DNA from: a virus
Virus record (IMG/VR): IMGVR_UViG_3300047373_000135
Location: 1 to 32,829 of that record
Direction: 5' to 3' (one strand)
DNA length: 32,829 nt
The notes under the pieces were generated by a model. That model was not told where the DNA came from and did no database searches. It saw only the letters and a list, made by a program, of their open reading frames with translations. Position 1 is the first letter of the stretch. Each line of letters opens with the position of its first letter. The position numbers and the translations under genes are program-made. Shown in pieces: positions 11,632 through 32,829 of this stretch.

Positions 11632-12195
11632 TTATTTTTTTTTCTGATCCTTGATTTCTTGGATTCTTTCCTTGTAGATATTGATGTACTCCTGGAGTTC
11701 GATCTTGTTAAATTTACGAGTCTCATGTGCAATGCTATCCAGATGATCCAGTGTATTCTCTCCAATTCTCTCAATCAATCCTTTACGCATCTCAATGAGG
11801 TTTCCATGTCGATGTCTATTGCAAGTGACACACTGGCCAAAAATGTTTAGATGAGCATTGAATCTGACATTCCAGTGGTTGTTTGCATTGTAATAATGAC
11901 CAGCATCAAATTTACCTTTTAGGATCTTATGACATGATATACATTTCTTTCCAGCATCTCGAAGTCTCACGAACTGATTGACTACCTTCTGGACTCTCTG
12001 GGCCATCTGTTGGATTGTCTCCAGATCTTTCTTTCGTTCTCTGAGATCCTTTCTTTGCTTTGCCTTCTGTTTGTTCTTAATCTTCTCAAGATTTAAGAGT
12101 GCCTCTTGTGTTTTGCATTCGGTAGTCCAGCAGAATTTCTCTGTTGTCTTGTATCTTGGTTTAAACTCAGATCCACAATTTTTACACTTTTTCAT
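11632..12195 (-). CDS. NinG/Rap-like recombination nuclease
   Basis: This 187-aa protein has an N-terminal zinc-knuckle pair (CKNC at 4-7, with Cys at 22 and 27), a long basic helix, and a C-terminal HNH-like part. That part has KCISCHK near 89, DAGHYYNANNHW near 106 and GQCVTCNRHRHGN near 125. This is the layout of lambda NinG (Rap), a structure-specific endonuclease that resolves recombination intermediates. It overlaps the end of the methyltransferase gene by 14 nt. Together with Erf, exonuclease and SSB it completes a recombination set. Confidence 0.85.
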   Translation of the reverse strand: MKKCKNCGSEFKPRYKTTEKFCWTTECKTQEALLNLEKIKNKQKAKQRKDLRERKKDLETIQQMAQRVQKVVNQFVRLRDAGKKCISCHKILKGKFDAGHYYNANNHWNVRFNAHLNIFGQCVTCNRHRHGNLIEMRKGLIERIGENTLDHLDSIAHETRKFNKIELQEYINIYKERIQEIKDQKKK

Positions 12196-13246
12196 TTAGA
12201 TTCAATCTTTGTATTATTAATTCTAAACATTTCACCACAATACTATTACCAGCCTGGCTATATGCTTGTGTGTCTGAACAATCCCATTTGAATGTATCTG
12301 GAAAGTCCATAAGACGAAAACACTCTCGTGGAGTCAATCGTCTTATAGTATTATATAAAACAAATTGATCAGTATTGCCTCCAGCACCAGTAGATAAGTG
12401 TAAAGTATTGCTAATGTTTTTTAAATTTCTCTTGACTACCTTACCAGTCACGTTGTCTCTTGAGTAAGATATTATCTGTGCAGTTCTATGTCCTTTGTGA
12501 TATGTTGCATCTATACAATTAGAATATTTTGGAATACCCTTTCCTAAAAAGTTTCTACCCCAGTCTGTTTTTTCTGTTCTTAAAATATATTCAATTTTGG
12601 TATCTGTTAAATTGTATTTTGGATCTGGGTTTGGTTCTAAAACATCATTTAAAGATTTTGTCATGTGGACTTTTTTAGGAAACCTAAAAATATTATCCGA
12701 GTCATCTCTTATCCCTACAATAAAAATCCTTTCTCTATTCTGAGGTACATTATGATCTTTTGAATTTAAAACTTTGTAATAGATGTGATATGGTACTGAG
12801 TTATTATATGGAAACAAAACTGGTAAACCATTTACAGACTTTCCACCGAGCATATTTACCCACTCTTGAAATGTTTTACCATCATCATCAGAAAGCAATC
12901 CTTTTACATTCTCAAATATAAAATATCTGGGTTTATTTTTAAGTATAAATTCATGGCTATTAAAAAACAATATGCCTCTTTCATCGTTCTTTCCTTTTCT
13001 GTTTCCATTCTTAGAAAAAGATTGACATGGAGGCGAGCTCATATAAATTGTCAATGGATCTTTAGGTATTTCTCTATCATACACATTCTCTGGATAATAA
13101 GATGGTTCTCCATAATTTAAAACAAATGTTTGCCTGGCCCACTTATTCATATCACAAGCAAAAACCTCCTCATGTTCAATTTTTAATCTTAATAGTGCTT
13201 GATTAAATGCACCCACTCCCGAAAAATCACTTCCTACTTTTATCAT
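12182..13246 (-). CDS. DNA (cytosine-5) methyltransferase, orphan
   Basis: This 354-aa enzyme has the C5-methyltransferase motifs in order: motif I DFSGVGAFNQAL (7-18), catalytic PPCQSFS (72-78, Cys 74), ENV (112-114), QNRERIFIVG (169-178), a RRLTPRECFRLMDFPD block near 305 and motif X QAGNSIVV near 332. All key residues are present, so it should be active. It would transfer a methyl group from SAM to C5 of cytosine, probably protecting phage DNA from host restriction. No restriction enzyme gene is beside it. The gene is clearly more AT-rich than its neighbours (several lines near 23-32% GC) and has only background GATC, signs of recent transfer. The target sequence cannot be read from the protein. 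Confidence 0.93.
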   Translation of the reverse strand: MIKVGSDFSGVGAFNQALLRLKIEHEEVFACDMNKWARQTFVLNYGEPSYYPENVYDREIPKDPLTIYMSSPPCQSFSKNGNRKGKNDERGILFFNSHEFILKNKPRYFIFENVKGLLSDDDGKTFQEWVNMLGGKSVNGLPVLFPYNNSVPYHIYYKVLNSKDHNVPQNRERIFIVGIRDDSDNIFRFPKKVHMTKSLNDVLEPNPDPKYNLTDTKIEYILRTEKTDWGRNFLGKGIPKYSNCIDATYHKGHRTAQIISYSRDNVTGKVVKRNLKNISNTLHLSTGAGGNTDQFVLYNTIRRLTPRECFRLMDFPDTFKWDCSDTQAYSQAGNSIVVKCLELIIQRLNLNEKV

Positions 13247-13545
13247 AATTCTACTTCAGCCAGGATACGTTGATATTTTTCTTTTAGATCTCTGTTTTCT
13301 GATCTGAGACCATTGGCTTCTGTCTCGAGCACCATTGATCTTCTTGAGAAGTCTTTGATTTCAGTGCTAAGTATTGACCATCCAGATTTTATCTCCAATA
13401 AATCTGACTCAGTTTCCTTCATGCTTGTGATCAGATCAGTTCTCTCTGGATGATTTTGTTCAATCTCCTCTCGGCTTAATTTTACCTTGAGATAGTTGTG
13501 ATCGATCATTGTCTTGATTGTAAATAGATAAAGTGAGTTTGTCAT
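13243..13545 (-). CDS. Coiled-coil protein of unknown function
   Basis: This 100-aa protein has heptad-like Leu/Ile spacing through most of its length (TDLITSMKETESDLLEIKSGWSILSTEIKDF, then LRSENRDLKEKYQRILAEVEL). It overlaps the helicase gene upstream and the methyltransferase downstream, each by ATGA, so it is translated as part of the replication block. It may be a helicase partner or loader, but nothing specific supports that. Confidence 0.65.
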   Translation of the reverse strand: MTNSLYLFTIKTMIDHNYLKVKLSREEIEQNHPERTDLITSMKETESDLLEIKSGWSILSTEIKDFSRRSMVLETEANGLRSENRDLKEKYQRILAEVEL

Positions 13546-14435
13546 AATAATTTAGGTTTGTTTAACTTGTTTAAATTTGGTCTGTGTGCTTGTAATGGAT
13601 CGACTCCAGCAATCGTGAATCCCAGACCAGAATTCCACGAAAATAACAAAGGTGATTGATATTCGCTAATTTGACCACCAGTCTCCTTGTCTTTAATTTT
13701 CTCGATTGAGACCATTGTGTAGTATTTCATTGTCGGATGGCCAGGCATTCTGTGGATGACCAATGCATCATCTGTTCGATTTACAAAGGCCTTACCACCT
13801 TCGATTTCACTTCGCATGGGCATCTTTAAATGTCCCTTAAAATCTCCTTCAGTATACACTGCACCAGTACGACCACTTGCCGATGTTGGATGTGTTGTGA
13901 TGTATACAGATTTCTGTGTGGTGTTTACAAAGTGTCTCATGTCGTTTAAGAATCTATAGTTTCCTTCATAGGTCATATCTCGATCAAGACCAGTAAATGG
14001 ATCAAGTAGACAAATGTCTGCATCTGATGAGCCATAGATGTCATTGAGCTCTTCTGGTTTGTATAGTTTTTTATTGTCTACAAACTCAACATAGTTCTCA
14101 AGATGGTTATGGATTTTCGTGATCTGAGTGGTAGTCAATTGCTTAAATGGTACACCAGCAAACCACTGAATCATGTCTCTCATGATCTGTCCCTTAGAGT
14201 TCTCTCCAGACCACATGATCACCTTCTTTTTGTTTATGACTATGTGACAAGTTAGCATCCATATAAGCCATGCAGTTTTTCCGACATTATCGTGTCCAAG
14301 TGCGATGGTCATTTGTGACTTCTTTAATCTGAGATAATCATCCAGTTGACATCCAATACCAAGACCTGGCTTGATCTTCCCAGAGTGATAGTCCAGAAGG
14401 TACTTCATTGATGATCCATGACTCTCAATTGACAT
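13542..14435 (-). CDS. DnaB/RecA-like replicative ATPase
   Basis: This 297-aa P-loop ATPase of the RecA/DnaB type has Walker A GHDNVGKT (47-54), MWSGENSKGQIMRDMIQWFAGV as the following strand and helix, and Walker B DICLLDPFTG near 140. A downstream VYITTHPTSASGR sensor segment is also present. It lacks the N-terminal DnaB domain, as many small phage helicases do. A strong Shine-Dalgarno (GAGGAGG) precedes the ATG and the gene overlaps the initiator gene by 11 nt. It probably acts with the upstream wHTH initiator at the iteron region. Confidence 0.83.
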   Translation of the reverse strand: MSIESHGSSMKYLLDYHSGKIKPGLGIGCQLDDYLRLKKSQMTIALGHDNVGKTAWLIWMLTCHIVINKKKVIMWSGENSKGQIMRDMIQWFAGVPFKQLTTTQITKIHNHLENYVEFVDNKKLYKPEELNDIYGSSDADICLLDPFTGLDRDMTYEGNYRFLNDMRHFVNTTQKSVYITTHPTSASGRTGAVYTEGDFKGHLKMPMRSEIEGGKAFVNRTDDALVIHRMPGHPTMKYYTMVSIEKIKDKETGGQISEYQSPLLFSWNSGLGFTIAGVDPLQAHRPNLNKLNKPKLL

Positions 14436-15093
14436 TATTACCTCCTCTCTTGATTTGTTCCTTTATGTGACTGATCAACTTGTCATCATCATTGGAGAAC
14501 TTTGGTTGATTCTTTGCCCATGTCGATAGTCTTCTGGACAGACTGAATGCTTTCATAGTTTCAAACCTCATCTTTCCATTCGGAGTCTTCTCAGTCCAAT
14601 ACATGAAAAAGTCGTTCAACATATCAGATCCGTACTTGTCCAAAAAAGGAGAAAGATCTGACTTGAATCCTTCTTTCTTATCCTTCTTATCTTTCTTATC
14701 TTTCTTGTTTGGGTTCGTCTGCGTTTCGTCTGCGTTTCGTCTGCGTTTCACTTGCGATTCATTATCGTTTCGGTCTTCTTGATAACTATCATAGTTACAG
14801 ATAGTTATGCGTGTCGTTTTTGTTTCATTAGTTAGAACAATCATGTGATCACTTTGTAACAACTTTAAAAACCTCCTGGCCTTCGATTTTGAACATCTCC
14901 ATCTGGTTGCAAGTGTCTGTATTGATCTTAAAGTTTCGCCACGTTTACAGACAAATATTTGACCATTGAGCTCGATCTTTTTGTCTTGATAGTTTACCAT
15001 TGTCAACAGATCGATCCAGTTCCTAAACTTCCAAGAGTCTTGAAATATCCAGTGTGATGTAATGTCTCTCTCAATCTTAATCCATCCATTCAT
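14425..15093 (-). CDS. Replication initiator-like winged-helix protein
   Basis: This 222-aa protein has an N-terminal winged helix (WIKIERDITSHWIFQDSWKFRNWIDLLTMVNYQ, then GETLRSIQTLATRWRCSKSKARRFLKLLQSDHMIVL) typical of phage replication initiators that precede a DnaB-like helicase. A central linker contains RRRNADETQTN and a Lys-Asp-Lys repeat, followed by a C-terminal helical domain (SDMLNDFFMYWTEKTPNGKMRFE). The linker DNA carries five 11-bp repeats, so the gene may contain the origin, as lambda O does. It shares a base with the upstream stop (TAATG). Confidence 0.8.
   Translation of the reverse strand: MNGWIKIERDITSHWIFQDSWKFRNWIDLLTMVNYQDKKIELNGQIFVCKRGETLRSIQTLATRWRCSKSKARRFLKLLQSDHMIVLTNETKTTRITICNYDSYQEDRNDNESQVKRRRNADETQTNPNKKDKKDKKDKKEGFKSDLSPFLDKYGSDMLNDFFMYWTEKTPNGKMRFETMKAFSLSRRLSTWAKNQPKFSNDDDKLISHIKEQIKRGGNNVN
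14672..14708. repeat. In-frame 9-bp Lys/Asp-coding repeats beside the iterons
   Basis: On the coding strand, AAAGATAAG-type 9-mers repeat about three to four times and encode Lys-Asp-Lys. The repeats are in frame and purine-rich, so they may simply be a linker. Their place next to the iterons could also make them the easily melted side of an origin. Confidence 0.5.
14716..14770. repeat. Five 11-bp iterons, candidate replication origin
   Basis: Three perfect copies of CGTCTGCGTTT (14716-14726, 14727-14737, 14738-14748) are followed in the same 11-bp register by CACTTGCGATT (14749-14759) and CATTATCGTTT (14760-14770). Eleven is not a multiple of three, so the repeat is not kept for a protein repeat; it gives three different amino acid readings. 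Repeats at one helical turn inside an initiator gene are a known form of origin (as in lambda O). Confidence 0.7.
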
Positions 15094-31901: not shown

Positions 31902-32829
31902 TTATGGCTTTAAGATTAGCGCTAAATCTGTAGCGATGTCACCATATACGAATGCTGGTTTTTGATTGTTCTTCACATATGATACAAGTCTCGCCTCTGC
32001 TAAGATTGTAACCATGTTCTTTGTGAAATCATCTTGATCTAAACCTACAGACATTGCAATGTTGTTTCTGAATCTTACATTCACTCTTGACATATCACCT
32101 ACAAGATAATCTCCTACTGGCATAAATGTTGAAGAGATTACTCTCATTCCAGCAATGATCATCTCACCATCTCCAGATTGAACTGGTAAGAACATCGGAT
32201 AAGTATATGCTCCATCAGATGCCTTTGTCAATTGAAGTTTAGCAATATCCTCTGGATTCAATACTACGTGAGTTGGTGTAAAGTTAGACGCTTCTATTTG
32301 TGCCTTCGCCACTCTTAACAAGTCACTAATGTTTGCATCTTGAACTAAGTCATCAAAGTTTCCATTGTAGCCAGGTAGTCCCATTGACGCATCAATTAAA
32401 CCTTTGATTTGGTTACCAGCACCAGTTCCAGTCAATAATGCTTGTTCGATTCCAACTCTCACTTGCTCCATTAAATCATTGTCGATCTCTGCACGAATGA
32501 AAGAAAGGTCTTCCAGCATCTCTTTAGAAACCTTCACGTATGACGCGATTTTCTTAACCTCTTCAGAGATCTCAGACCATGTTGGCTCTCCTTCTGTTTT
32601 TGCACCACCTTCTGCAGTCCATCCAGTTCCAGATGTTGCAGTTTGTTGTACATAAGTAACGAATTTACCAGAAGTTGCTCCAGTGTTTACGTTCTCAAGG
32701 ATTCCATATCTGTTTCTTACAGATCGATCTACTTCTGTATCAAAGTCAGTCAATGCGTAGTCACCAGTGTAGTCAGCCGTAATCGTTGTAGTTTTCACAT
32801 CAAGATTTAACTTTCCACCTTTCTCAACT
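31902..32829 (-). CDS. Major capsid protein, main part (start lies at 481 across the ends)
   Basis: This is the 3' part of the HK97-fold capsid gene; the 5' part is at 1-481 after merging the terminal overlap. The sequence shows GWTAEGGAKTEGEPTWSEISEEVKKIASYVKVSKEMLEDLSF and IEQALLTGTGAGNQIKGLID, the E-loop and spine helix region of gp5-type capsids. The C-terminal VRFRNNIAMSVGLDQDDFTKNMVTILAEARLVSYVKNNQKPAFVYGDI completes the fold. An ATG at 32798 exists (MKTTTITADY) but lies inside the gene. Product about 406-409 aa before delta-domain cleavage. Confidence 0.93.
   Translation of the reverse strand, partial: VEKGGKLNLDVKTTTITADYTGDYALTDFDTEVDRSVRNRYGILENVNTGATSGKFVTYVQQTATSGTGWTAEGGAKTEGEPTWSEISEEVKKIASYVKVSKEMLEDLSFIRAEIDNDLMEQVRVGIEQALLTGTGAGNQIKGLIDASMGLPGYNGNFDDLVQDANISDLLRVAKAQIEASNFTPTHVVLNPEDIAKLQLTKASDGAYTYPMFLPVQSGDGEMIIAGMRVISSTFMPVGDYLVGDMSRVNVRFRNNIAMSVGLDQDDFTKNMVTILAEARLVSYVKNNQKPAFVYGDIATDLALILKP
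32651..32829. repeat. Terminal overlap, right copy
   Basis: This is the second copy of the 179-bp end overlap described at 1-179, differing at one silent site (C at 32778). It marks where the circular map was opened. Confidence 0.93.

Follow-up and report, generated by a model that had tools for sequence, protein, structure and literature searches.

The window analysed here is the whole of a 32,829-bp virus record. Its two ends (1-179 and 32651-32829) carry the same 179 bp apart from one mismatch, so that the record probably represents a complete phage genome closed into a circle. The minus strand encodes nearly all of the likely genes. Around 14 kb, an initiator gene is followed in the same operon by the gene of a DnaB-like ATPase, and genes for an ssDNA-binding protein, an Erf annealing protein and an exonuclease are found nearby. 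The first-pass annotation had placed the initiator upstream of the ATPase, which is right in transcription order, since both genes are on the minus strand. A C5-cytosine DNA methyltransferase gene (12182-13246; Pfam DNA_methylase, E 6e-62) also belongs to this replication region, two genes past the ATPase. The features considered below are, in the order of transcription:

14425-15093, minus strand: initiator gene, 222 aa (phrog_2514 match and predicted structure)
14749-14770, minus strand: two degenerate 11-bp iterons in exact register, 7/11 each (unit-by-unit comparison)
14716-14748, minus strand: three perfect 11-bp iterons, AAACGCAGACG on the coding strand (sequence inspection)
14672-14706, minus strand: purine/A-rich tract with a period of 9, AAGAAAGAT-repeated and read as KKDKKDKKDKK, a candidate opening region (sequence inspection)
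13542-14435, minus strand: next gene in the operon, DnaB-like ATPase with a RecA fold, 297 aa (Pfam and PHROG profiles)

The ATPase is related to the C-terminal domain of DnaB-type replicative helicases, with matches to phrog_18375 (primase/helicase, 3.9e-17), phrog_19 (DnaB-like, 1.1e-10) and Pfam DnaB_C (E 5.9e-6, with a bit score slightly below the curated cutoff). The initiator begins with a predicted winged-helix N domain (aa 1-105); the repeats lie in the disordered linker that follows (aa ~108-138), and the C domain (aa ~138-200) is helical. Its best profile, phrog_2514 ('DnaD-like helicase loader', E 3.3e-32), covers aa 1-146 only, and O-like and initiator families are matched more weakly. 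In the AlphaFold2 model, pLDDT is about 90 or more at aa 11-90 and falls below 50 at aa 108-138, a disordered segment that coincides with the iterons and the A-rich tract. The N-domain fold matches plasmid RepA initiators (4pt7 and 4pql; Z 8.4 over about 90 residues), a Rep-DNA complex (5kbj) and a phage O protein (TM 0.89 by target), which agrees with the winged-helix initiator proposed from the letters of the sequence. Many general winged-helix regulators match this fold as well, and therefore the fold alone does not prove function.

The DnaD domain (TIGR01446/PF07261) gave no match to the window initiator in Pfam or NCBIfam searches; TIGR01446 does match the homologous protein of Staphylococcus phage SA12 (1.9e-22) and, weakly, that of one other relative, L092 (3.1e-5). 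The C domain of the window initiator (aa 143-202, 14485-14667; YWTE...MRFE..K.F...RL..W) recurs in Flavobacterium 11b, Cellulophaga and Bacteroides phages, in proteins whose N domains are unrelated to that of the window. It looks like a helicase-partner module of Bacteroidota phages that has no Pfam family.

The 11-bp array and the adjoining A-rich tract

Three exact CGTCTGCGTTT copies (14716-14726, 14727-14737 and 14738-14748) are continued without a break by CACTTGCGATT (14749-14759) and CATTATCGTTT (14760-14770), each of which matches the perfect iteron at 7/11 positions, while the units flanking these five copies match at merely 4/11. The longest run of matches at lag 11 is 25, against a maximum of 10 at this lag, and of 13 at any lag from 5 to 60, in 60 first-order Markov sequences of the same length, so that the array of three perfect and two degenerate copies with an exact 11-bp period stands as it had been described. 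Elsewhere in the 32.8 kb, the iteron 11-mer is absent from both strands when up to one mismatch is allowed. The degenerate copies are further supported by a close relative (L003, 95% aa identity), because its fourth copy matches the iteron at 10/11, compared with 7/11 for the corresponding copy of the window (14749-14759); close relatives differ here by substitutions and have the same copy number. The iterons of the window are themselves G+C-rich.

When the linker was recoded with synonymous codons drawn from the same gene, the observed lag-11 score of 27 was never reached (null mean 6.1), and the 11-bp repeat is hence not dictated by the protein. A unit of 11 does not divide by 3, so the frame changes from one copy to the next (KRRRNADETQT); a single copy gained or lost would put the rest of the gene out of frame, which speaks against free slippage. 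The earlier reading of a period out of step with codons as a mark of DNA-level selection is thus supported for the iterons.

The same cannot be said of the purine-rich 9-bp repeat tract noted beside them: it is present at 14672-14706, but its period does not exceed the synonymous-codon expectation (p 0.26). Over the family, the lag-9 signal rises above this null in only 9 of 41 genes, and the 9-bp period is therefore mostly explained by Lys, Asn, Asp and Glu codons, so the tract was rejected as a second DNA-level repeat. An A-rich tract at this place is typical of the relatives: averaged over 41 family genes, the 45 nt after the array contain 75% A+T, against 65% in the gene as a whole, and A alone makes up 59.5% of their coding strand. 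In the window, the tract is moderately unstable only (7th-16th percentile of duplex stability) and was rejected as the least stable point of the genome. An 8-bp period occurs in the tract after the iterons, or in their place, in the Listeria phage A006 (L102) and in four other relatives (L036, L133, L143 and L160); since it is out of step with codons, DNA-level selection is possible there, and there is a hint that in these genes the presumed opening region is under such selection.

The compositional check suggested for the place of the origin was of little help. The detrended GC-skew has its extremes at 4.2 and 24.0 kb and the AT-skew at 16.7 and 24.3 kb, and both were rejected as origin locators, because nearly all genes run one way and the skew mostly reflects that; the place of the array is neither supported nor excluded by them.

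Conservation of the period and association of iteron sequence with the N domain

Relatives were gathered with a protein query followed by alignment, among viral contigs, annotated phages and bacterial genomes (presumably carrying prophages), and the region scored was the 110 nt that follow a conserved [IV]CNYDSYQ-like motif. This gave 53 distinct viral relatives, the window included, and 105 distinct genes once annotated phages and bacterial genomes were added. In the viral set, mean identity reaches 0.505 at lag 11, 0.484 at lag 22 and 0.457 at lag 33, against about 0.30-0.40 at other lags, and remains flat at about 0.28 in the other two coding regions sampled. A significant 11-bp array was detected in 45 of the 53 viral relatives against the synonymous null (p <= 0.01), a codon-order null likewise leaves 45/53 significant at lag 11, and among 2493 control stretches taken from these loci, one alone attains a lag-11 score of 14. 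In the larger set, 67/105 genes pass at lag 11 beyond the synonymous-codon null, compared with 7 at lag 8 and 0 or 1 at lags 7, 10, 13, 14, 16 and 17. Conservation of the period in related phages, proposed earlier as a check, is accordingly strongly positive: most of the genes of both sets show it, those of dozens of only distantly related phages among them, with repeat letters that vary by clade. While these letters change from clade to clade, period and place are constant: many arrays end 67 nt past the motif, and 4 to 5.5 copies are present in 32 of 41 arrays, a steadiness unlike the freely varying repeat number that slippage had been expected to leave.

Among named phages, 11-bp arrays are found in Staphylococcus PVL and SA12, Lactobacillus phiAT3, Bacillus 279BB001 and Enterococcus EH-TP1, and 22-23 bp versions in Anoxybacillus A403, Vibrio 1.242.O and Pseudoalteromonas SL25; relatives in bacterial genomes come from Bacteroidota, Alpha- and Gammaproteobacteria, Spirochaetes and others. 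No relative at the DNA level was found among the named phages. The phrog_2514 genes of the Staphylococcus, Bacillus, Lactobacillus and Enterococcus phages resemble that of the window in having a related N domain and 11-bp arrays in the same linker, and differ from it in their repeat letters and their C domains, SA12 carrying a DnaD domain to which the window protein gives no match.

In 8 of the 53 viral relatives, no significant 11-bp array was found, and some of these carry 12-bp repeats in step with codons. Arrays of 12 bp replace the 11-bp ones in the same linker in six relatives (L081, L087, L070, L136, L164 and L165), which may form a separate spacing class within one origin type. A near-perfect 12-bp array (ACAGATACAGTA, score 63.5), also in step with codons, lies in the linker of gp007 of Cellulophaga phage phi19:3 (L109:1260-1928), a protein that has only its C domain in common with the window initiator and a different N domain.

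Which part of the protein does the iteron sequence follow? Iteron distance correlates at 0.67 with N-domain distance and at 0.21 with C-domain distance, and the partial correlations are 0.658 for the N domain (0/2000 permutations as high) and 0.085 for the C domain. Many pairs of genes have the N domain and a similar iteron in common although their C domains are unrelated, and where the N domain is common and the C domain is not, the iteron is mostly kept; conversely, the C domain of one relative (L012) is common to several genes with another N domain and another iteron. Iteron sequence thus follows the winged-helix N domain and not the exchangeable C domain, although part of the correlation is possibly due to linkage, because the array adjoins the sequence encoding the N domain. 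After correction for overall divergence, the strongest link to iteron change is found at two positions of the alignment, residues 69 and 70, with which the predicted recognition helix (69-81) begins; several wing residues (87-93) also rank high. The recognition helix taken as a whole is not significantly enriched (p 0.34), though the top two positions are inside it, and its association with the iterons is therefore only suggestive.

Comparison with known origins and alternative readings

An origin inside an initiator gene is a known kind, with iterons and an AT-rich tract located in the middle of gene O in phage lambda (PMC7466680). The lambda O-like arrangement recognized in the window holds as to order, from the N-terminal DNA-binding domain to the iterons (aa 116-144 in lambda), the A-rich tract, the C domain and the gene of a helicase partner. 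It does not extend to the parts themselves, as lambda has four 18-bp inverted-repeat iterons with annotated starts 20-24 bp apart, in place of the contiguous 11-bp direct repeats of the window, and its next gene encodes a P-type loader instead of a DnaB-like ATPase. Membership in the lambda O family proper was rejected, the window having no 18-bp inverted-repeat iterons. In phage SPP1, oriL lies within gene 38 and comprises direct repeats and an AT-rich unwinding element, bound by the gp38 replisome organizer (PMC6316719). The window resembles this published description in having repeats and an A-rich tract inside the initiator gene, but SPP1 has a second origin copy (oriR) 13 kb away, and no second array was found in the window genome. 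The plasmid RepA_N initiators of pSK41 and pTZ2162 have a comparable winged-helix N domain (4pql, 4pt7), which binds iterons described as semi-palindromic (PMC7145576), and differ by these iterons and by having no sequence-level match to the window protein. The window thus combines the traits of initiators with internal iterons, namely tandem direct repeats, a predicted DNA-binding domain encoded before them and a helicase-type gene alongside.

With the array in the disordered linker of a winged-helix initiator, the A-rich tract directly after it and the DnaB-like ATPase one gene on, this layout matches the origins that experiments have established in lambda O and SPP1 gene 38; initiator binding, opening of the A-rich tract and helicase loading are its likeliest functions. 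The functional reading leans chiefly on the comparison of relatives. From sequence, this comparison and structure prediction, we infer that the array is very probably the initiator-binding part of a phage theta-type replication origin, located inside the initiator gene and completed by the adjacent candidate opening region. The N-terminal winged-helix domain of the 222-aa protein would bind the five 11-bp iterons, one per helical turn, a spacing that would align the initiators on one face of the DNA; the aligned initiators would then strain and open the neighbouring A-rich tract, with the C-terminal domain recruiting a replicative helicase, most likely the DnaB-like ATPase of the next gene, or that of the host.

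A DNA-binding array does not by itself reveal its use, and the repeats might serve as sites of the same protein, or of a host or phage regulator, for autoregulation or partition rather than as a replication start; Foldseek also lists the TubR-type winged-helix centromere binders (3m8e, 3m8f) and CzrA/HlyU-type repressors at similar scores. Such a use is nevertheless improbable, given that the array lies within the coding sequence and not at a promoter and adjoins an A-rich tract, as in lambda O, that the attached C domains include DnaD in two relatives and a weak DnaT-domain match in one, and that no parA, tubZ or parM partner was identified among the genes searched.

Still less probable, and already disfavoured, is a feature of the protein alone, in which a flexible charged linker would have grown by repeat slippage and the DNA would play no role. 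The linker is indeed disordered and of biased composition (K, N, D, E), and the 9-bp tract is in keeping with codons, as are the 12-bp arrays that some relatives have; however, units of 11 bp encode a different peptide in each of three consecutive copies, the period is lost on synonymous recoding in 45 of 53 genes, a single-copy change would break the frame, and copy number is steady. An RNA-level signal, with repeats in the mRNA bound by a regulator, would account for an array transcribed with the gene in one orientation in all relatives, but a period of about one turn of double-stranded DNA, and clade-variable iteron letters that follow a DNA-binding winged-helix domain, make this the most remote of the three.

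Relative to the origin kind known from lambda, what is added here is the contiguous 11-bp unit, the breadth of its distribution and its co-movement with the N domain, which are new at most with respect to the open-access literature, where no description of 11-bp iterons in DnaD-like phage genes was found. A bolder proposal, which we hold tentatively and rate as somewhat short of an even chance, is that of one general, hitherto undescribed origin type. In this proposal, a large initiator family spread over many phyla would bind contiguous 11-bp iterons in its own linker, the winged-helix domain and the iterons moving as one cassette and helicase-recruiting C domains being exchanged behind the A-rich tract, so that both origins and recognition code could be read from sequence.

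To our knowledge, the place where replication starts has been established for only a minority of phages, and the 11-bp rule looks general and useful for locating it. Should this rule hold, sequence alone would suffice to place the origin to within about 100 bp wherever the initiator family occurs, among phages and prophages of several bacterial phyla. Initiator specificity would also become open to simple domain-swap tests between laboratory phages, thanks to natural variation in the family, where iteron letters change along with recognition helices and C domains are freely exchanged.
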